DNA of 64,000 nt from a virus: IMG/VR virus record IMGVR_UViG_3300028024_000008, positions 1 through 64,000 of that record; one strand, written 5' to 3'. The notes beneath the pieces were generated by a model. That model made no database searches. It worked only from the letters and a program-made list of their open reading frames with translations, and was not told the DNA's origin. Positions 951-61,378 of the stretch are shown one piece after another; the first letter of the stretch is position 1, and each line of letters starts with the position of its first letter. Both the position numbers and the translations under genes were made by a program.

Positions 951-2189
951 TCACATCACGCCGATCGAGACGGCGTGTTTCTTCAGTTTCTCGAAGCGCT
1001 CGATGATCGGCTTGCTGGCCGGGTCATCAGCCTTGCGGAGGACAACCGTGAATCCTTCGTTGAAGGATTCGATGTTGTCGGAGGTCCAGATATCGTGCGG
1101 TTCCGGAAAGGTCGCGACGATGTTCTCCATCTTGTCGAGCCAGCCGGTGATGCTCGGAATCGTCTCGACGGTCGTCGTCCGGGGATCATAGAAATCGAGG
1201 CCCTTGCCGCCCTCCGGCTGCTTTCCTTCGGCGGGGCTTTGGTGCTTTGCCGGCTCCCCGCTGCCGTCCGTGCCGGCCTCGGCGTTTGCGCCCTGCGAAT
1301 CCGGACGCGCTTTATTCTTGTTTTTGTCCTCGTCTGGCCGGCCGTCGCCCTGATCGGCATCGGTGGCATCCTTACGGAATTGCGCCTGAGTCGGACGGTC
1401 GGGCGCCTGAGTCGGTGTGATCACCTCGACGCCGCCACCAAGATCGATGGTATGGCCTTCCATCTCGTCATTCGTCATCCAATCGCCGACCTCTTCGGGG
1501 AATGCCGCGCGCAAGGCAGAGGCCTCGGCGACCTTCTCCAGCATGAAACTCGGCTTGCGGGACCATATGTCATTGGGCAGATCGGTCTTGCCCTGCCGGC
1601 CATAGCTCTCGACGAATTTCACCCGGGGGCCCGGATAGGCGCGGGGCGTGCCGGCGCGGTCGAGCCGATAGAGCGTCACCTCGCACCAGTCCGGCGCGAT
1701 GACCTCGACAGTCTTTTCCGGCTGCTTGACCTTGTTGCCGTTTTCCCAGACCTCAGGAGAGCCCTTGAAGATGAATTTCTTGTCCGGGCCCCAGGTCGGC
1801 TTATCCTTGCCGGCATAATCTGCCGTCCGAAACGCGGTGGTGCGCAGCTCGCCGATGCCGGGCCAGACGGTATCGACCATGCGGCGCAGCTGGTTGGAGT
1901 AGATCGGTACGATATGGACGACGCGCTTGAAGGGGTCGAGCTTTCGCGCCCGGCAATAGCTGAGGGCCAGGAGGATGCTGTCAACCGATGTCGCCAGCGG
2001 GTAGCAAGCATCGATCAGCGCCCGCCACATGCCTTCATTGATCTCCGGAAACTGCCGCTGCACCTCTGGATGCCAGGGCAGGCGAGGGGCCGGCAATGGC
2101 GCCAGCTGGCCCTTGCTCTGCGGCTCCTGCGCGAAGCCCTGGTCCTGCTGCTGCGGGCGTTCCTTGGTCTGTGTGTTCTGCTTAGCCAT
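951..2189 (-). CDS. bet: RecT/Bet-family single-strand annealing protein
   Basis: This 412-residue protein would anneal complementary single DNA strands during phage recombination or recombination-dependent replication. Residues about 35-245 form the RecT/Bet core: SVDSILLALSYCRARKLDPF (69-88), the IYSNQLRRMVDTVWPGIGEL region, and the family signature MLEKVAEASALRAAFPE (216-232). The N-terminal 30 residues are Gln-rich. The C-terminal third is charged and low in complexity, then ends in a more conserved stretch. The start is supported by GGGGAAAGCC nine bases upstream. In lambda the comparable gene (bet) also lies in the PL operon beside an exonuclease; no recognisable exonuclease gene is adjacent here. 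A RuvC-like resolvase is encoded in the right operon. Confidence 0.9.
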   Translation of the reverse strand: MAKQNTQTKERPQQQDQGFAQEPQSKGQLAPLPAPRLPWHPEVQRQFPEINEGMWRALIDACYPLATSVDSILLALSYCRARKLDPFKRVVHIVPIYSNQLRRMVDTVWPGIGELRTTAFRTADYAGKDKPTWGPDKKFIFKGSPEVWENGNKVKQPEKTVEVIAPDWCEVTLYRLDRAGTPRAYPGPRVKFVESYGRQGKTDLPNDIWSRKPSFMLEKVAEASALRAAFPEEVGDWMTNDEMEGHTIDLGGGVEVITPTQAPDRPTQAQFRKDATDADQGDGRPDEDKNKNKARPDSQGANAEAGTDGSGEPAKHQSPAEGKQPEGGKGLDFYDPRTTTVETIPSITGWLDKMENIVATFPEPHDIWTSDNIESFNEGFTVVLRKADDPASKPIIERFEKLKKHAVSIGVM

Positions 2190-2233
2190 GCTGGCTTTCC
2201 CCGGATGATGGATGGTGAAATATCGAACTGGCG

Positions 2234-2581
2234 TTAGGTGGTGGCGTCGGTCCTACGGAAGCCGCTGCAGCTGCCGTCACCTTCGATCACGGCGACAATC
2301 GGGCCCCACCCTTTGTGAGGGCCTTCGCTGAAGATGCCGCAGAAGCCATTAATGACGCCGAGAAAACCGACGACGGGCTGGTTATCAGCGAAGTTCGCTT
2401 CATAGGCCCCGGGAGCGCTCTTGAGATCGCCCCAGATACCAGCCTGCACAGTCGGATGACCGAGGACGTCAAGGTTGCATGGCACCCTGGCTGCGACCAG
2501 CTTGCCCATGCCGACTGGATCGAGCTTGGCCAAGGTGTCCAGGAAGGTGACGAGGTCGTCCGTTGCGGGATGAATTGCCAT
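2234..2581 (-). CDS. Hypothetical protein between RecT and coiled-coil protein
   Basis: The 115-residue product begins MAIHPATDDLVTFLDTL, with AAGGAG eight bases before the ATG. Residues about 30-60 contain RVPCNLDVLGHPTVQ, and the C-terminal half is glycine-rich with a KGWGPIVAVIEGDG stretch. Small proteins with an RVPCN...HPTVQ pattern occur near annealing-protein genes in other alphaproteobacterial phages, as far as I recall, but I know of no function. It lies between the RecT gene and the coiled-coil gene in the same operon. No signal peptide or membrane segment is visible. Confidence 0.8.
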   Translation of the reverse strand: MAIHPATDDLVTFLDTLAKLDPVGMGKLVAARVPCNLDVLGHPTVQAGIWGDLKSAPGAYEANFADNQPVVGFLGVINGFCGIFSEGPHKGWGPIVAVIEGDGSCSGFRRTDATT

Positions 2582-2592
2582 CGTGAGACTCC

Positions 2593-3801
2593 TTAGCGGA
2601 CGACCGTATTGACGTCCTCGAAGATGATGACGCCGGCCAGTTCGCGGCCATCGGCGTCGACGTAAGAGCGGATCGCGCGCTCCAGCGCCGCCTGGTCGAA
2701 ATGCTGCGCCAGCTTCAGGATGTCACCGCGCAATGCGGCCATATCGGTGATCTGGAAATCCCAGTCGGTGCGGAGAGATGCCGTGGCGCCGTGATCGCCG
2801 CGGACCTGGCCGAATTCATGGGGCTTCGCCTCGATGACGCGGGTTTCCTTGACGATCGCCGCCGTCTCGCGCTCAGAAGCCTGCACGACGCGGGCGTCGG
2901 CCTTTTCGACCTTCTTGGCGCCGGCTTCTTCGGCCAATTTGATCCGGGCGGCATTCCGTTCTTCCTGCTCCAGGCGCTGGCGCTCCAGCCGGGTCTGTTC
3001 CTCGGCCGCCGCCAGCCGCTCGCGCTCAGCCTTCAGCCGATCGGCCTCGGCAGCTTTGCGCTGGCGCTCGGCAGCTTCCTCGGCTTCCTTGGCCGCCTTG
3101 ACCGCGGCATCGCGCTTGCGGCCCGCCTCGGCGGCCTCCTCGATCGCTTTGCGGCGGTCTTCCTCGGCCCTGGCCCGGGCCTGCTCAGCCTCCTGCCGCT
3201 GGCGCTCGGCCGCTGCCGCCCGCTCCTTGGCCTCACGTTCCAATGCCTCGGCCTGGCGCTGGCGCTCCTCGGTCTCGCGGCGCTGCGCATCGGCCTTTTC
3301 ACGGGCTTCACGGGCGATGCGCTCGGCTTCCTCGCGCGCCGCCGCCGCTTTGGCTTCCTCTTCCTTGCGCAGCCGCTCGGCCTCTTCGCGCTTTTTACGG
3401 GCCTCTTCCTCGGCGAGTTTGCGCTTGCGGTCGGCCTCCTTCTCCTGAAAGACCTGCAGGCGGCTCTCGACCGTCTCCTTGTCCTTTTTCAAAAGATTGA
3501 TCGGCTTCATGAAAAGGTTCTGCACGGCGGCGGCGGCGTTATCATGCGGCGCCTTCTCCGCGGCGCGGGTGGTGTTGAGATCCTTGACGCCGTAACCGAT
3601 CTGCTTGGCGAAATCGGCCGCCTTGCGGGCCGTCTCCTCGTCATCGATCGTCTCCGGCACCGCGCCCATGCCGGCATGCAGATCATTCGCCCGCTTGAAC
3701 AGGAAATCGTGCTTTTCCTGCAGGTTGTCGACGATCTGCTGTTCAGCGGAAACGACGGCAATATTGGTGAGATCCGGGATCTCGGCGACGGCAACGCTCA
3801 T
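2593..3801 (-). CDS. Coiled-coil phage protein of the RecT neighbourhood
   Basis: The product has 402 residues. Residues 1-115 are a conserved globular part beginning MSVAVAEIPDLTNIAVV. Residues about 118-300 are almost wholly Glu/Lys/Arg/Ala and should form one long coiled coil. The last 80 residues are globular again (VRGDHGATASLRTDWDF and the end FEDVNTVVR). This C-terminal signature recurs in phage proteins encoded beside RecT-type annealing proteins, so a role in DNA metabolism is likely but unproven. The start is supported by GGAGG 10 bases upstream, and the ATG overlaps the previous stop by four bases (ATGA). The opposite strand is open for 434 codons, an artefact of the repetitive charged codons. 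Confidence 0.85.
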   Translation of the reverse strand: MSVAVAEIPDLTNIAVVSAEQQIVDNLQEKHDFLFKRANDLHAGMGAVPETIDDEETARKAADFAKQIGYGVKDLNTTRAAEKAPHDNAAAAVQNLFMKPINLLKKDKETVESRLQVFQEKEADRKRKLAEEEARKKREEAERLRKEEEAKAAAAREEAERIAREAREKADAQRRETEERQRQAEALEREAKERAAAAERQRQEAEQARARAEEDRRKAIEEAAEAGRKRDAAVKAAKEAEEAAERQRKAAEADRLKAERERLAAAEEQTRLERQRLEQEERNAARIKLAEEAGAKKVEKADARVVQASERETAAIVKETRVIEAKPHEFGQVRGDHGATASLRTDWDFQITDMAALRGDILKLAQHFDQAALERAIRSYVDADGRELAGVIIFEDVNTVVR

Positions 3802-48763: not shown

Positions 48764-49534
48764 ATGGACAGACTTAAAAGCAATATCGGCCGGCGTTACG
48801 ACTGGATCCCGGACCTGCCGGATCACCGCGATGATGTCTATCAGGTGAAGCGCCGTCTAGCGCTGCCGACGAAGGTCGATCTCTCGGCGAAATGCTCGCC
48901 GGTCGAGGATCAAGGCGATCTCGGCAGCTGCACCGCCAATGCGCTCGCCGGCGCCCTCGAATTTCTCGAGGATGTCGACGGCACGCCGTTCAAGGATATT
49001 AGCCGGCTCTTCATCTATTACGGCGAGCGGGCGATCGAGCATACCATCAACCAGGATAGCGGCGCGCAGATCCGCGACGGCGTCAAGTTCTTGCACCAGA
49101 TCGGCGTCTGCTCTGAAGATCTCTGGCCCTATGTCATCGCCAAGTTCAAGCAGCGGCCGCCGGCAGCCGCCTATGCCGATGCCAGCGGCCGCAAGATCAC
49201 CAGCTATAGCCGCGTCATCGGCATCAATGCGCTGCGGGCCTGCCTGGCGGCCGGCTTCCCGGTCGTGTTCGGCTTCACGGTCTATGACGGCTTCGAGAGC
49301 GATGCCGTCGCCAGGACCGGCAAGCTGAACATGCCGAAACCGACGGAACGGGCGCTGGGCGGCCATGCCGTGCTGGCGGTCGGCTATGACGACGGGACCA
49401 AGCGGGTGAAGGTCAGGAACAGCTGGGGCGCTGGCTGGGGCCTGAAGGGCTATTTCACGATGCCCTACGACTATATCGGCAATCCGCAGCTCGCCGACGA
49501 TTTCTGGACCATCCGCGCCGGGAGCCAGCTGTGA
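48764..49534 (+). CDS. Papain-like (C1) cysteine protease
   Basis: The product is 256 residues. The papain triad is clear: Gln50 and Cys56 in VEDQGDLGSCTANALAGALE, His201 in GGHAVLAVGYDDG, and Asn219 in VRNSWGAGWGLKGYF. There is no signal peptide or pro-region. C1 proteases are uncommon in phages and unexpected within lysis genes. It could process virion proteins, be injected, or act on host proteins in late infection. The next gene starts in GTGA overlap. The fold call is firm; the role is open. Confidence 0.9.
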   Translation: MDRLKSNIGRRYDWIPDLPDHRDDVYQVKRRLALPTKVDLSAKCSPVEDQGDLGSCTANALAGALEFLEDVDGTPFKDISRLFIYYGERAIEHTINQDSGAQIRDGVKFLHQIGVCSEDLWPYVIAKFKQRPPAAAYADASGRKITSYSRVIGINALRACLAAGFPVVFGFTVYDGFESDAVARTGKLNMPKPTERALGGHAVLAVGYDDGTKRVKVRNSWGAGWGLKGYFTMPYDYIGNPQLADDFWTIRAGSQL

Positions 49535-50627: not shown

Positions 50628-51707
50628 CTGCAGCGCAATTTCGGCCTCGACCTGATGCGAGCCGCCGCCATCCTCATGGTGGTGACGGTCCATGCGCCGA
50701 AGACATTCCCTGGCGAGCAGATTCCCTCCATGTTGAGCGTCGATCTGTTCTTCGCGCTGAGCGGCTTCCTGATTGCCCAGATGATGGTCGAGCGGTTCGA
50801 TGGCATCTCGACTTGGCCGGCATTGCGGGCTTTCATGCTGAACCGCTGGCTGCGGATCTTCCCGCTCTATTACCTGACCCTCGCCGCTTTCCTCGTCTAT
50901 GCCGCCCTGCGATATCCGCCGAGCTGGACCGGCGGATCGTTCGTGGCACCCTGGCAGTTCGTTTTCTTTCTATCGGACCTGACCGCCGGCCGGCCCAATG
51001 ACCATGGCTATTTCTCCTTTTTCCTTGTCTCGTGGTCGCTGTCGATCGAGGAGCTGTTCTATTTCGGCTGCCCGCTGGTGGCGCTGCTGACCGGCCGGTG
51101 GCGCCGATCGCCGATATTCTGGATCTGCCTTGGCGCCGCAGTCATCGTCGCGACCATTTTGGCGCGGCTCTGGGTATATCTGCAGGTCGACGACGGATCC
51201 CTGACCGAGGATAGCGCCTATCGCCGCGCGACGTTCCTCCGGGCGGATGTCTTTGTCTATGGGGCGGCGATCTATTGGCTCTGCCAGCGGGGATTCTTTA
51301 CCCGCCGGAATGCGCTGCTGGTCGCGGCCATCGGCCTTGTGACCTTGCTGTGGTGCGCCGTTCATTATATCGCCGCGCCGGACGGCTTTTTCAGCAAGAT
51401 CTGGCTGCTGTCCCTGGTGCCGATGGCCTGCGCCATGCTGATCCCGGCGGCGATGATGCTGCCGGCGCCGAATGTGATCGGCGGCCTGATCCGGCTGCTC
51501 AGCACGCGGACATATGCGCTCTATCTCACCCACATGCTGGTGCCGGCCGTCTGGTTCATCTTCGTGGCGATCACGCCGACAAACTATCTCTGGTCGCTGG
51601 CGATCTCATTCCTTCTCGCCAATCTCCTGCATATCGCCTTGGAGCGGCCGTTCATGCAGTTGCGCCCAATGGATGCATCACATAAGGTTCCCGCCCTGGC
51701 AGAATGA
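50628..51707 (+). CDS. Acyltransferase 3 family (O-antigen acetylase-like)
   Basis: The product is 359 residues if started at CTG 50628, which has AGGAG six bases upstream; the first in-frame ATG (50655) would remove the conserved NFGLDLMRAAAILMVVTVHA, including the start of helix 1. About ten membrane helices follow, with catalytic His22 in VVTVHA and the RWLRIFPLYYLTL motif. Family members move acetyl groups onto surface glycans, as Oac of phage Sf6 does. Placed at the end of the late region near integrase, it is a probable lysogenic conversion gene changing host receptor polysaccharide. Confidence 0.85.
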   Translation: MQRNFGLDLMRAAAILMVVTVHAPKTFPGEQIPSMLSVDLFFALSGFLIAQMMVERFDGISTWPALRAFMLNRWLRIFPLYYLTLAAFLVYAALRYPPSWTGGSFVAPWQFVFFLSDLTAGRPNDHGYFSFFLVSWSLSIEELFYFGCPLVALLTGRWRRSPIFWICLGAAVIVATILARLWVYLQVDDGSLTEDSAYRRATFLRADVFVYGAAIYWLCQRGFFTRRNALLVAAIGLVTLLWCAVHYIAAPDGFFSKIWLLSLVPMACAMLIPAAMMLPAPNVIGGLIRLLSTRTYALYLTHMLVPAVWFIFVAITPTNYLWSLAISFLLANLLHIALERPFMQLRPMDASHKVPALAE

Positions 51708-52208: not shown

Positions 52209-52407
52209 AAAAGGTGCGACAATGGGCTGAGGAAAAGGTGCGGAATGCTGGGACATTCGCCGACTGTCGCACTCTCGCTAAGCGGCTGATTTTCTTCAAT
52301 TGTGGCATGCCGTCCCTGGGCACCATCGCATTTCCAAGCATTTGAAAACGCTTCACTTTGTGCCGGCTTTTGTCGCACCTTTCGTGAACTGCGCTTCAGG
52401 TGCGACA
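52209..52407. other. Probable attP: tRNA 3'-end-like core with integrase arm sites
   Basis: CCGTCCCTGGGCACCA (52310-52325) reads as the 3' end of a tRNA with CCA. It fits an acceptor stem of GCCCAGG type, as in tRNA-Phe. Around it are copies of AAAGGTGCGACAA or its complement at 52210-52222, 52233-52245 (variant), 52265-52272 (short), 52368-52380 and 52397-52408. The layout of repeated arm sites flanking a core beside int is that of tyrosine-integrase attP sites. The last two arm sites lie within the 3' end of int. Confidence 0.65.
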
Positions 52408-53504
52408 ATCTCGTTCTCTTTTGGTGCCTCGCGGCTGAGATATTTCATGCCGCTGGCGGCCAGCTTATTGCGGTTCGCCTTGCGGGTATAGACCGCTGCT
52501 TGCTTCGGGCTTTCCCAGCCATAGATCGCCATCAGCTGGTATTCGGTAGCGCCGTTGTTCGCCGCGATCGTGGCGCCCGCCTTGCGCAATCCATGCGCCG
52601 AGCAGCCGATCAGTCCCGCAAGGCGGCATTGCCTGCCGAACCAGTTGCCGAAGCCACCATGTGAGTAGGCCTTGCCGTGGTCGGTGACGAGATAGGTCAG
52701 ATGATTATTCGGCGTCGCGTCGAGCACTTGCTGCAGCTCAGGCAGCACCGGAATGAAGCGCTCCTTCAGCACCCGCTTGCGACCCTTCCATTCTCTGAAA
52801 TGGAGGACGGGACCGCAATATTCTTCCATCTCGATATGTTTTGCCATTTGCCGCCCGAGCTTGATGACGTCTGACCGCCGCACGCCGGTAAAGAGCAATA
52901 GAGCCATCGCCAGGCGCGGCTTGGTTCCGATCGGCCAGCGCTTCTCGAACTGTGCGATCTCCTCAAGAGTCCAGGTATGGAACCCCTCGGGATTGTTGCT
53001 TTCCAGATAAGGCACGTCGGCCGCCGGGTTGGCCTCGGCGTATTCCATGGCGATTGCCCATTTGAAGACCTGCCGCAGCGCCTTGATGAAGCTGTTCGCC
53101 GCCTCTGGCCGGCTCGACATGGCGTCACGGTCCTGGCGTAGGTTCCGGGCCCGGAGTGGCTTGAAGGGCAGGTGGCCGTCTCGCTGGCTGAATTTCTCCA
53201 GGATCAGCTTCCGGGCATGCTGTGTCGCCGGCTCGAGGGTCTTGAATTCGGCGCTCTTGTAATACTCGGTCAGCAGCCACGCCAGGGTGCCACTGGCGGG
53301 CGCCAGGGCTTTCTTGGGCAATCCAAGGCCATTGGCGGCCCGGAACTCCAGCGCCTGCAGGCCGTCCTTGTAGCTCTGAAGGAAGGCGGTTGTGCCTGGC
53401 GCGCCCTTGACCCGGATCCGCTTGCCATGGCGCCTGACATACCATTTCTCGTTCCCGTGCCGATCGGTCTCATGGGAGAGATAGGGAAGGTCGATCTGGG
53501 TCAT
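52353..53504 (-). CDS. int: Tyrosine integrase
   Basis: The product is 383 residues from the ATG at 53504, in ATGA overlap with the excisionase gene. An arm-binding N-terminal part (YVRRHGKRIRVKGAPGTTAF) and a core-binding helix domain (about 75-160) precede the catalytic part: Arg in FTGVRRSDVIKL (about residue 210), Lys in REWKGRK, His304 and Arg307 in SAHGLRKAGAT, and nucleophile Tyr339 in AAVYTRKANR. The second His is replaced by Trp (IYGWES), as often seen. It integrates and excises the prophage at the nearby attP. Confidence 0.94.
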   Translation of the reverse strand: MTQIDLPYLSHETDRHGNEKWYVRRHGKRIRVKGAPGTTAFLQSYKDGLQALEFRAANGLGLPKKALAPASGTLAWLLTEYYKSAEFKTLEPATQHARKLILEKFSQRDGHLPFKPLRARNLRQDRDAMSSRPEAANSFIKALRQVFKWAIAMEYAEANPAADVPYLESNNPEGFHTWTLEEIAQFEKRWPIGTKPRLAMALLLFTGVRRSDVIKLGRQMAKHIEMEEYCGPVLHFREWKGRKRVLKERFIPVLPELQQVLDATPNNHLTYLVTDHGKAYSHGGFGNWFGRQCRLAGLIGCSAHGLRKAGATIAANNGATEYQLMAIYGWESPKQAAVYTRKANRNKLAASGMKYLSREAPKENEIVAPEAQFTKGATKAGTK

Positions 53505-53752
53505 CGCTTGTCCCAAGGGTTTTCCTCCTCGGAAGTTGGCAACGCGGAAAAGGCGGCGTCAAGGGCCAGCCGATCCCATATGACGCGAGTGTTAACCTTT
53601 TTGGCCTCCGGCATCCGGCCGTCTTTAACCATTTCATCGAAGAGGCTGGGCGAGACGCCGATATAGGCCGCCGCCTCGACGCGGGAAAGACCGCGGGGCG
53701 GGCAGGAGGCCGGCAGGATGTCAGCGCGGCGGCGCGGCGCCTCGACGTTCAC
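53501..53752 (-). CDS. xis: Excisionase/AlpA-like HTH protein
   Basis: The product is 83 residues, MNVEAPRRRADILPASCPPR and onward. The winged-helix HTH is GLSRVEAAAYIGVSPSLFDE (residues 20-39), followed by VKDGRMPEAKKVNTRVIWDR, the AlpA/MerR-like pattern. It is next to int with overlapping stop and start. It probably acts as recombination directionality factor. Confidence 0.85.
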   Translation of the reverse strand: MNVEAPRRRADILPASCPPRGLSRVEAAAYIGVSPSLFDEMVKDGRMPEAKKVNTRVIWDRLALDAAFSALPTSEEENPWDKR

Positions 53753-57976: not shown

Positions 57977-58239
57977 CCGATGCCTCCTGCTCGCTCAATC
58001 GCCTGTATGCGGATACGCTCCCAGGCATGGTCCGCAATCATCTGGCACCGCTCCAAAGTTTCACCTTGAACGCCACGCTTGATGAGGCGATTGGCGCGGC
58101 TGTACCTTTTCCGATGATGAGCATCGCCGAGCCGCCAATGCTTCCAGCAGATGATGCGGGTCCCTTCCTCGTACTTCGCCTTTGGAGCGGTACGGCGGCA
58201 GAACGGCACCTCGCAGGCGATGCGGTCGGGCTTGGTCAT
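57973..58239 (-). CDS. Small cysteine-containing basic protein
   Basis: The product is 88 residues from the ATG at 58239 (ATGA overlap), MTKPDRIACEVPFCRRTAPK and onward. The set CEVPFC ... IICWKHW could bind zinc in a treble-clef-like site. RYSRANRLIKRGVQGETLER is basic. Similar small phage proteins lie near replication genes. Function unknown. Confidence 0.7.
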   Translation of the reverse strand: MTKPDRIACEVPFCRRTAPKAKYEEGTRIICWKHWRLGDAHHRKRYSRANRLIKRGVQGETLERCQMIADHAWERIRIQAIERAGGIG

Positions 58240-59939
58240 GGAAACAGCCAATCTGCTGCTTTGACCGTCCCGCGCCCGCTGGGCTCGATCAACCCATAGG
58301 CGGCAACGGCCGACATATAGACCCCGGCCGTGCTGGCAGTCGGCGACAGCCCAACACTTTCAGCAACGGCATCCCGGCGGATATCCTTCGGCCAGGCACG
58401 ATAGATGACATCGAAGACACGCTGCTCCTGAGCGCCTAAAAGACCGCGCGCCATTTGATAGAGATCTTCGCGCGTCGTCGCCGTCGGCATGTTTGCCGCC
58501 TTCAGCCCTGCCGGCGTCAGCGCGATCTTGCCGGGCGATGTTTCGAGCAGTCCTGCTTTGACCAGCTGCGAGACGTAGACGCCGAAGGTGGAAGCCTTCG
58601 GACTATAGCCGGCAACGACACAGGCCCTATCACGGTCGGCTGGATCCTGGCCGATCTTGCGCCACCAGGCGACTGCGTCGAGGACGCGCTGCTGTGCCGG
58701 CGTGATGCCTTCGCTGGGAGGATTGGAGCGGACGACGGGACTCGAACCCGCGACACTCGGCTTGGAAGGCCGATGCTCTACCGACTGAGCTGCGTCCGCT
58801 TTGTGAGTTGGCACCTTCATCGGCGATGGTGCGCCGCGACGCTCTCCTGGCACCACATGGTTGCCATCATAGTAATCGAGATGCCCACGGACCCGCTTCA
58901 GGAGTTCGTCCCACCCGCCAACATATCCCTCGTTATAAGCGCCAAGGCGCATGGCATCGATCTCGGCCTGAGATATGGATGGCACCGATACCTGTGCCGG
59001 CGCAGCCTTCAACTGCTTCTCCAGCTCGGCAACGCGTCGCCGCAATGCGACCGGATCATCTGCCTCAGCCGCCTTCACGGCATCACCGATCAATGCCCGC
59101 AGCTTCTCAGGATCGACCTGAGCGGTCTTGACCTCATGCCGATGATCGTCATCGGTCGGGGTGGCGCTGTTGTCATAGGTCGTGATGCGCGGGAACTTGA
59201 CGAGATCGGCGATATTGGCCTCCCCGGATATCACCCAGCCTTCACCGGTCTTGAGGCCGGCCAGCGAGCGGGAGACCTTCTCGGCAACGTCCTTGGCGAC
59301 GTTTCCCCGCAGCCATTCCTTGACCGGCGTCTGATCGGCCGGCAGCGTCAGCCGGTGCGCGATAAGCGTCTCGCAGCTGCCGAGCACGGCATTGTGCAGC
59401 GATTGGGTCCGCTGCGTCACCACCACCAGGCGAATGCCCTTCGACCGGCCGGCAGTTGCCAGCTTCTTCGCGAAGTGGATGGTCAGGTTCTCGCCGCCGA
59501 AGCCCGCCCGTTCTTTCGGGGCGAATTCGTGCGCCTCCTCGATGACCAGGTAGAGGATACCGCGCATCTTCCGCAACAGGGCCGGTGCGAATTCCGTGAA
59601 GAAGGTCTGCAGGCCGCCCGGCTTGAAATCGGCCATGTCGATGATACTCAGCGGCAGGTCACCACCGGCCACCAGCTCGCCGATCGGCTTGCCCGCCGTC
59701 TCCTGGATCTGCACATGGCCGTGCGGGCCGCCCAGGATCTGGAATGGCAGGCCTGGGCGCTTGCCGTCGGCGCTTGACGTCAGGCCCCACCAGTCGGACT
59801 TGATCGGGTCCAGAATGCACACCCGGGCGCCCTGGGCCACGACATGCTCGACCAGCAGCTTGGCGGTCGAGGTCTTGCCCGAGCCAGTCTTCCCGACCAC
59901 AGCAGTATGCTGGCCGATGATCTCCTTGAAGATCTTCAT
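58236..59939 (-). CDS. HerA/FtsK-like ATPase with C-terminal winged helices; contains tRNA gene
   Basis: The product is 567 residues. Residues 1-260 are a HerA/DUF87-type ATPase: Walker A AVVGKTGSGKTST (13-25), Walker B GILYLVIEEAHEFAPKERAG (about 125-144), KKLATAGRSKGIRLVVVTQR (sensor region). A coiled coil follows at about 290-325. Two winged-helix units end the chain, VLDAVAWWRKIGQDPADRDR and VFDVIYRAWPKDIRRDAVAE. Between them and the coil, residues about 381-405 (QSVEHRPSKPSVAGSSPVV) are the in-frame translation of a complete tRNA gene. Close ATPase homologues I can recall lack this segment. It may move or sort DNA. Confidence 0.85.
   Translation of the reverse strand: MKIFKEIIGQHTAVVGKTGSGKTSTAKLLVEHVVAQGARVCILDPIKSDWWGLTSSADGKRPGLPFQILGGPHGHVQIQETAGKPIGELVAGGDLPLSIIDMADFKPGGLQTFFTEFAPALLRKMRGILYLVIEEAHEFAPKERAGFGGENLTIHFAKKLATAGRSKGIRLVVVTQRTQSLHNAVLGSCETLIAHRLTLPADQTPVKEWLRGNVAKDVAEKVSRSLAGLKTGEGWVISGEANIADLVKFPRITTYDNSATPTDDDHRHEVKTAQVDPEKLRALIGDAVKAAEADDPVALRRRVAELEKQLKAAPAQVSVPSISQAEIDAMRLGAYNEGYVGGWDELLKRVRGHLDYYDGNHVVPGERRGAPSPMKVPTHKADAAQSVEHRPSKPSVAGSSPVVRSNPPSEGITPAQQRVLDAVAWWRKIGQDPADRDRACVVAGYSPKASTFGVYVSQLVKAGLLETSPGKIALTPAGLKAANMPTATTREDLYQMARGLLGAQEQRVFDVIYRAWPKDIRRDAVAESVGLSPTASTAGVYMSAVAAYGLIEPSGRGTVKAADWLFP
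58724..58799 (-). tRNA. tRNA-Gly (anticodon TCC)
   Basis: This 76-base gene has a perfect acceptor stem GCGGACG/CGTCCGC and a D arm GCTC-AGTCGGTA-GAGC. The anticodon arm is TCGGC-CTTCCAA-GCCGA (anticodon TCC). The T arm is GCGGG-TTCGAGT-CCCGT, and the 3' end is an encoded TCCA. All conserved positions are present, so it should be functional. It lies on the coding strand inside the HerA-like gene, in frame and without stops. It reads GGA codons, which are rare in GC-rich genomes. Confidence 0.95.
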
Positions 59940-60633: not shown

Positions 60634-60947
60634 GCCCGCTTCTCCCGCTGAGCCATTCTGACCGCCTGGCGGCCGATCTCGGTAATGAACCACTCGGCCG
60701 AATAGTCGCTGTCATTGACCCAGGTAAAGAGTCCGATGCCGGCCACACTGCGCCGAGCTTCACGCCGCACCAGGCCGCGCCAGTAAAGAGCACGGATGAC
60801 CCGCATCGGGTACAGATGGCCGATAGGATTTCGCTTCGGCCGCCGGCCGGTGCGCGGGTCTGCCGAGCTGAGGCAGAGCAGCATCGCGTCGCTAAGCTGC
60901 AGGTCGACCTTGCCGCCGGCGGGGAAGGGGATGATTTGGGCTGTCAT
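60630..60947 (-). CDS. Hypothetical protein, possible winged helix
   Basis: The product is 105 residues, MTAQIIPFPAGGKVDLQLSD and onward. YPMRVIRALYWRGLVRREAR and FITEIGRQAVRMAQREKRA suggest a winged-helix-like fold. It overlaps both neighbours by four bases. Function unknown. Confidence 0.7.
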   Translation of the reverse strand: MTAQIIPFPAGGKVDLQLSDAMLLCLSSADPRTGRRPKRNPIGHLYPMRVIRALYWRGLVRREARRSVAGIGLFTWVNDSDYSAEWFITEIGRQAVRMAQREKRA

Positions 60948-61378
60948 TGCTTTGCCATCCTGTCATAGAGAACGACATTCGCCGTCGCAGCGAGATTCAT
61001 GCACGCTGCAGTGGGGATGGAGATCAAGTCCCGGCATCGTTCGGTTAAATGTCGCGGCAAGGAGCCGTCCTCCGGCCCGAAAATATAGAAGGCCCGTTCC
61101 GGGTGACGATATCGAAAGAGCGAGCGTGCTGAAGGATCGATCTCGACGGCAACCGGAACGCAATCGTGTGGCAATGCGCCAAGCAGATCGGCGACATGAA
61201 GTGTCGGTATATGCCGCCGGGCATCGGTTGTGTCCGAGGCCTGCCTGCGGTATCGGTGTCCCTGGATGACGATCAGGGATGCGCTATAGCAAAAGGCCGC
61301 GCGCATCACGCCACCGACATTGTGGTCAGTCTTCGGATTGAAAAGGCCGATTGCGGCGAAACCACGGCCACGCATCAT
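60944..61378 (-). CDS. SPOUT-family (TrmH-like) RNA methyltransferase
   Basis: The product is 144 residues. The TrmH/SpoU signatures are present: FAAIGLFNPKTDHNVGGVMR (motif 1, residues 7-26), RAFYIFGPEDGSLPRHLTER (motif 2) and LISIPTAACMNLAATANVVL (motif 3, the knot). It would methylate a tRNA or rRNA ribose. Phage-borne members are uncommon. The same operon encodes a tRNA-Gly. The catalytic Arg of motif 1 appears as VMRAAF. Confidence 0.88.
   Translation of the reverse strand: MMRGRGFAAIGLFNPKTDHNVGGVMRAAFCYSASLIVIQGHRYRRQASDTTDARRHIPTLHVADLLGALPHDCVPVAVEIDPSARSLFRYRHPERAFYIFGPEDGSLPRHLTERCRDLISIPTAACMNLAATANVVLYDRMAKQ

Follow-up and report, generated by a model that had tools for sequence, protein, structure and literature searches.

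A complete tRNA-Gly gene in frame within the linker of a phage HerA-like ATPase gene, and the recurrence of the arrangement among homologues

A complete tRNA-Gly(UCC) gene lies wholly within a HerA-like ATPase gene of a phage, on the same strand and read in frame as protein, and tRNAs of several isotypes occupy the corresponding linker in homologous genes of other phages. The sequence analysed, referred to here as the window, is a stretch of 64,000 nucleotides (positions 1 to 64,000) of the IMG/VR record IMGVR_UViG_3300028024_000008. The gene and its parts are located in the window as follows.

58236..59939, minus strand: HerA-like ATPase ORF of 567 aa, open across the tRNA
59010..59939, minus strand: HerA/FtsK-type ATPase part, approximately residues 1-310, from Pfam, an AlphaFold model and a fold match
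58722..58877, minus strand: disordered linker, residues 355-406, pLDDT below 50, its second half being the tRNA
58724..58799, minus strand: tRNA-Gly(UCC), complete, with CCA encoded, equal to codons 381-406 of the ORF
58764..58766, minus strand: anticodon TCC, tRNA positions 34-36, from ARAGORN and the sequence
58239..58706, minus strand: C-terminal tandem winged-helix part, residues 412-567

The tRNA is the only one detected by ARAGORN in the 64-kb window, and its sequence is present once in the entire record of 64349 bases. It scores 68.9 bits (E = 8e-13) with Rfam RF00005 and has the features of a bacterial-type tRNA gene, with 21 of 21 stem pairs standard, a TTCGA T loop and an encoded CCA; its sole oddity is position 8, which is an atypical C and not U. 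Its first base is the start of codon 381 (frame 0). The sequence-only reading, which had placed an intact tRNA-Gly(TCC) inside a HerA-like ORF on the same strand, is upheld, as ARAGORN, Rfam and the open frame of 567 codons agree.

The N-terminus of the ORF matches DUF87/HerA (PF01935, E = 8e-10, above the Pfam cut-off) and HerA structures are at the top of the fold search (E approximately 1e-11), which places the protein among the HerA/FtsK-type ATPases. With the hexameric members of this group (DUF87; PDB 8xav, 4d2i) it shares the ATPase fold and sequence, but it differs from them in possessing C-terminal tandem winged helices joined via a long disordered linker. In the AlphaFold model, which was built on 26 homologues and has a mean pLDDT of 84, values below 50 are found solely at residues 355-406, of which the tRNA encodes 381-406. 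Two further claims of the initial reading are thereby borne out, namely that the tRNA lies in frame in a linker with a coiled coil on one side and winged helices on the other, and that this site is permissive.

Two observations concern the C-terminal part itself. The recognition segments of the two winged helices nearly match within each protein (SPKASTFGVY and SPTASTAGVY in the window, KRSSRDAY twice in the homologue L174), vary among homologues and seem to change together within a protein, which perhaps fits a repeated DNA site. In addition, the type of C-terminal domain swaps at the linker between close relatives (L012, L198 and L257 compared with their relatives), so that herA genes look modular, with the linker as the exchange point.

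Profile searches of viral contigs yielded approximately 200 distinct herA homologues. Besides the window, six of these contain, in the same linker, a full-length tRNA on the sense strand, and the share of homologues with a linker tRNA is approximately 3.5%.

L002, sense: tRNA-Gly(UCC) in the herA linker
L034, sense: tRNA-Gln(UUG) in the herA linker
L084, sense: tRNA-Ala(UGC) in the herA linker
L174, sense: tRNA-Arg(CCG) in the herA linker
L257 and its twin record L260 (two records, identical protein), sense: tRNA-Arg(CCG) in the herA linker
L301, sense: tRNA-Ile(UAU) in the herA linker

The single tRNA insertion that had been supposed is therefore replaced by a recurrent arrangement with five isotypes (Gly, Gln, Ala, Arg and Ile), in which all three reading phases are used. 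Every full-length linker tRNA has no fewer than 19 standard stem pairs out of 21, the acceptor and T stems are fully paired in all seven, and CCA is encoded in all except L301. The linker is enriched in tRNAs approximately tenfold, as the linkers make up 3.4% of the bases but contain 6 of the 19 tRNAs of these loci (p = 3e-5), or 5 of 18 when the two Arg cases are counted once (p = 3e-4). No antisense tRNA was found in herA, all seven being sense, despite the fact that the frames of tRNAs are open equally often in the antisense (61/120) and sense (54/120) directions. The linkers with a tRNA are 96-123 aa long, against a family median of 112 aa; a simple lengthening insertion is not supported, because the tRNA replaces linker of normal length.

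Chance and misassembly are excluded, because L002, an independent phage record with a protein 78% identical (larger segment), likewise carries tRNA-Gly(UCC) there and in the same frame. A DNA-pattern search for further copies returned L002 alone, genome searches covering one genome from each of the G227 and G155 families were empty, and the sole match in a class-wide genome search was an already known Bradyrhizobium homologue. L002 also has, at 2115-3120, an in-frame intein-like insertion of approximately 335 codons in the ATPase part, following EEAHEF and ending in VTGN before CPKERAG, which is absent from the window homologue.

The level at which the linker tRNAs are constrained may be estimated from the only two same-isotype pairs, window/L002 (Gly) and L174/L257 (Arg). 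The herA genes of the window and L002 are approximately 85% identical in nucleotides on both flanks of the linker region, the linker is unalignable up to the first base of the tRNA, and the alignment resumes approximately 13 bases past the CCA. Third codon positions differ at 1 of 25 sites in the tRNA but at 151 of 466 outside it (p = 0.0014). Changes at first and second positions are instead more frequent in the tRNA (6/50 versus 41/932, p = 0.028). As judged from these counts, this pattern is the reverse of that of protein-level constraint. The proteins of L174 and L257 are 60% identical and differ in their winged-helix recognition segments, and their third positions differ at 3 of 25 sites in the tRNA versus 294 of 513 elsewhere (p = 1e-5). 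Their acceptor pairs 4-69 (C-G versus G-U) and 5-68 (C-G versus A-U) are changed on both sides and pair 6-67 on one side, and all three are still paired.

Conservation at the RNA/DNA level is thus observed in both pairs. Because third positions are conserved in the tRNA, the surrounding linker is unalignable and the acceptor changes are paired, the constraint would appear to act on RNA or DNA and not on the peptide, unless the members of a pair are independent insertions. The same signature in third positions and paired changes would be expected had similar tRNAs been inserted recently and independently. With respect to dual coding, the frame is open in all the linker tRNAs and RNA-level constraint is seen in two pairs, a signature also expected from independent insertion.

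We lean toward the explanation that these are nested dual-use tRNA genes, lying in frame in the herA linker, co-transcribed with herA and later decaying to plain linker. The tRNAs would have been captured by the linker, in which any open sequence of 25 codons would be tolerated. The herA mRNA, presumably from an early operon, would be transcribed through the tRNA; RNase P and 3'-end nucleases would cut some of the transcripts and release the tRNA, and uncut transcripts would be translated into a HerA-like protein whose linker is encoded by the tRNA. The released tRNA may be charged, and tRNA and protein output may compete. The switch between tRNA and protein raised in the initial reading, in which processing would destroy the mRNA, would be logical, because a cut at the 5' end of the tRNA would deprive the ATPase message of its stop codon. 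Captured tRNAs may be kept while useful and then fade to ordinary linker, as in L201 (see below). A stronger claim, that this class of phages keeps functional tRNAs nested in an early HerA-like motor gene, with each transcript giving either tRNA or motor protein and tRNA supply coupled to the loss of motor message, is offered as a tentative and rather unlikely possibility.

What the tRNA of the window is kept for is not accounted for by the demand for GGA codons. The initial suggestion of retention for GGA decoding is weak, since GGA makes up just 8.6% of the Gly codons. Nor is there any sign that the tRNA is a recent copy of a host tRNA in a sample of 289 alphaproteobacterial genomes, in which the best match is 87% identical and has a different anticodon. 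An RNA methylase of the SpoU family, which might act on tRNA, is encoded at 60944-61378 in the same early gene cluster.

The strongest rival to nested dual-use genes, which we regard as possible if somewhat unlikely, is that the tRNAs landed in the linker by illegitimate recombination and persist for their open frame, with a functionless RNA, the recent ones being still intact. The linker is disordered and hypervariable and codon demand is low, as this reading would have it. Moreover, its end state exists: L201, found by a covariance model from 18 tRNAs (seven of them linker tRNAs), has in the same linker place and frame a decayed Arg-type remnant, ungapped, with 25.6 bits and 15 of 21 pairs, that still serves as linker. 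Partial erosion is seen in L084, which has D-stem damage and, like L257, C56U; L002 has two stem mismatches. Such non-canonical features of single copies, together with C8 in the window and the lack of CCA in L301, would speak against full tRNA function. On the other hand, a purely passive origin is at odds with the sense orientation of seven of seven tRNAs when antisense frames are equally open, with the third-position constraint in two pairs and with the paired acceptor-stem changes between L174 and L257.

Alternatively, the cloverleaf may be a regulatory RNA that mainly serves, by attracting RNase P (or else a tRNA-binding factor), to have the herA mRNA cut, thereby splitting the ATPase from the winged helices or limiting HerA, the tRNA being a by-product. 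The position of the tRNA between two functional parts, the constant strand and the full pairing of the acceptor and T stems are consistent with such a role, for which the isotype would be immaterial, as the five isotypes suggest. This is nevertheless improbable, because a cut at the tRNA 5' end yields a message lacking a stop codon, and because the rarity of the tRNA among homologues indicates that the regulation of HerA generally does without it.

The linker tRNA might also be an attP, with integration into a host tRNA splitting herA. Two features of the window are relevant here.

52353..53516, minus strand: tyrosine integrase, relatives of which adjoin tRNA-Phe
52312..52325, plus strand: 14-bp 3' end of tRNA-Phe next to the integrase, the likely attP core

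In favor of an attP, each of the five tRNA-bearing phages that were checked has a tyrosine integrase gene 1-6 kb downstream, on the strand of herA (the integrase of the L174 phage, counted among the five, is below the Pfam cut-off). In SSV-type integrase genes, the att site is the 3' part of a tRNA. The suicidal archaeal integrases of this type carry the att site within the int coding sequence (PMC8371274). There, as in herA, att- or tRNA-related sequence is read in frame as protein. They differ from the herA case in that the att site lies in the int gene and is cut on integration, whereas a whole tRNA including CCA lies in an ATPase gene in the herA phages, at least three of which have separate attP-like sites. 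In bacterial genomes, integrases related to that of the window lie approximately 100 bp from tRNA-Phe (L229-L231), and the tRNA-Phe 3' end in the window is equally far from the matching integrase residue. L084 has a tRNA-Val(CAC)-like 3' half approximately 250 bp past int, and the L174 phage has a separate tRNA-Arg(CCU) directly past int; furthermore, the herA units are whole tRNAs and not 3' halves. The herA tRNA is thus not the attP in at least three phages, because attP-like tRNA ends of other isotypes adjoin the integrase; as a general reading an attP is highly improbable, and it was rejected. By the same sequence comparison, tRNA-Phe is the predicted attB of the window phage.

In the tRNA-dependent lysogeny of actinobacteriophages, the phage tRNA is of the isotype that is disrupted at attB (PMC10865867). 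The window phage resembles these in being temperate, with a tyrosine integrase and its own functional-looking tRNA gene, but differs in having a Phe-like attP with a Gly tRNA and in having the tRNA inside a protein-coding frame. With a Phe-like attP core and a Gly tRNA in herA, the isotypes do not agree as such lysogeny demands.

In the window, near the integrase end, a papain-family cysteine protease (48764-49534) and an O-acetyltransferase (50655-51707) are possible lysogenic conversion genes. An array of 12-bp units (CCCACACGCTGT) is present at 2-268 of the window, and the same units are found at the end of the 64349-base record, which is probably a circular genome opened within the array.

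That two genes, for an ATPase and a winged-helix protein, with a tRNA between them (the normal, intergenic place of tRNAs) were fused by sequencing or assembly error deserves next to no credence, since the frame is open in seven phages from separate records and tRNA-less homologues have the same fused domains, joined by an equally long linker.

Overlapping tRNA and protein genes that share bases are found in mitochondria, and most are short overlaps at the ends; the herA tRNA likewise shares its bases, but lies entirely inside the ORF and in its frame. In the open-licence full-text literature, no account was found of a bacterial or phage protein gene that contains a whole tRNA in frame; this is weak evidence but in line with the initial statement that no precedent was known. 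The closest counterparts are the att sites within archaeal integrase genes (PMC8371274) and ordinary tRNA genes of phages; one report retrieved (PMC6409571) deals with tRNA clusters and not with nesting in ORFs. The components are ordinary, and it is the arrangement and its recurrence that are rated new.

A whole tRNA doubling as in-frame coding sequence, evolved repeatedly and with five isotypes, indicates that structured RNA genes can fill linker codons. The nested tRNA is a natural test case for the division of one transcript between RNA processing and translation, and L201 represents a route by which tRNA genes turn into protein sequence. As automatic annotation discards one of the two where a tRNA and an ORF overlap, more cases may be hidden.
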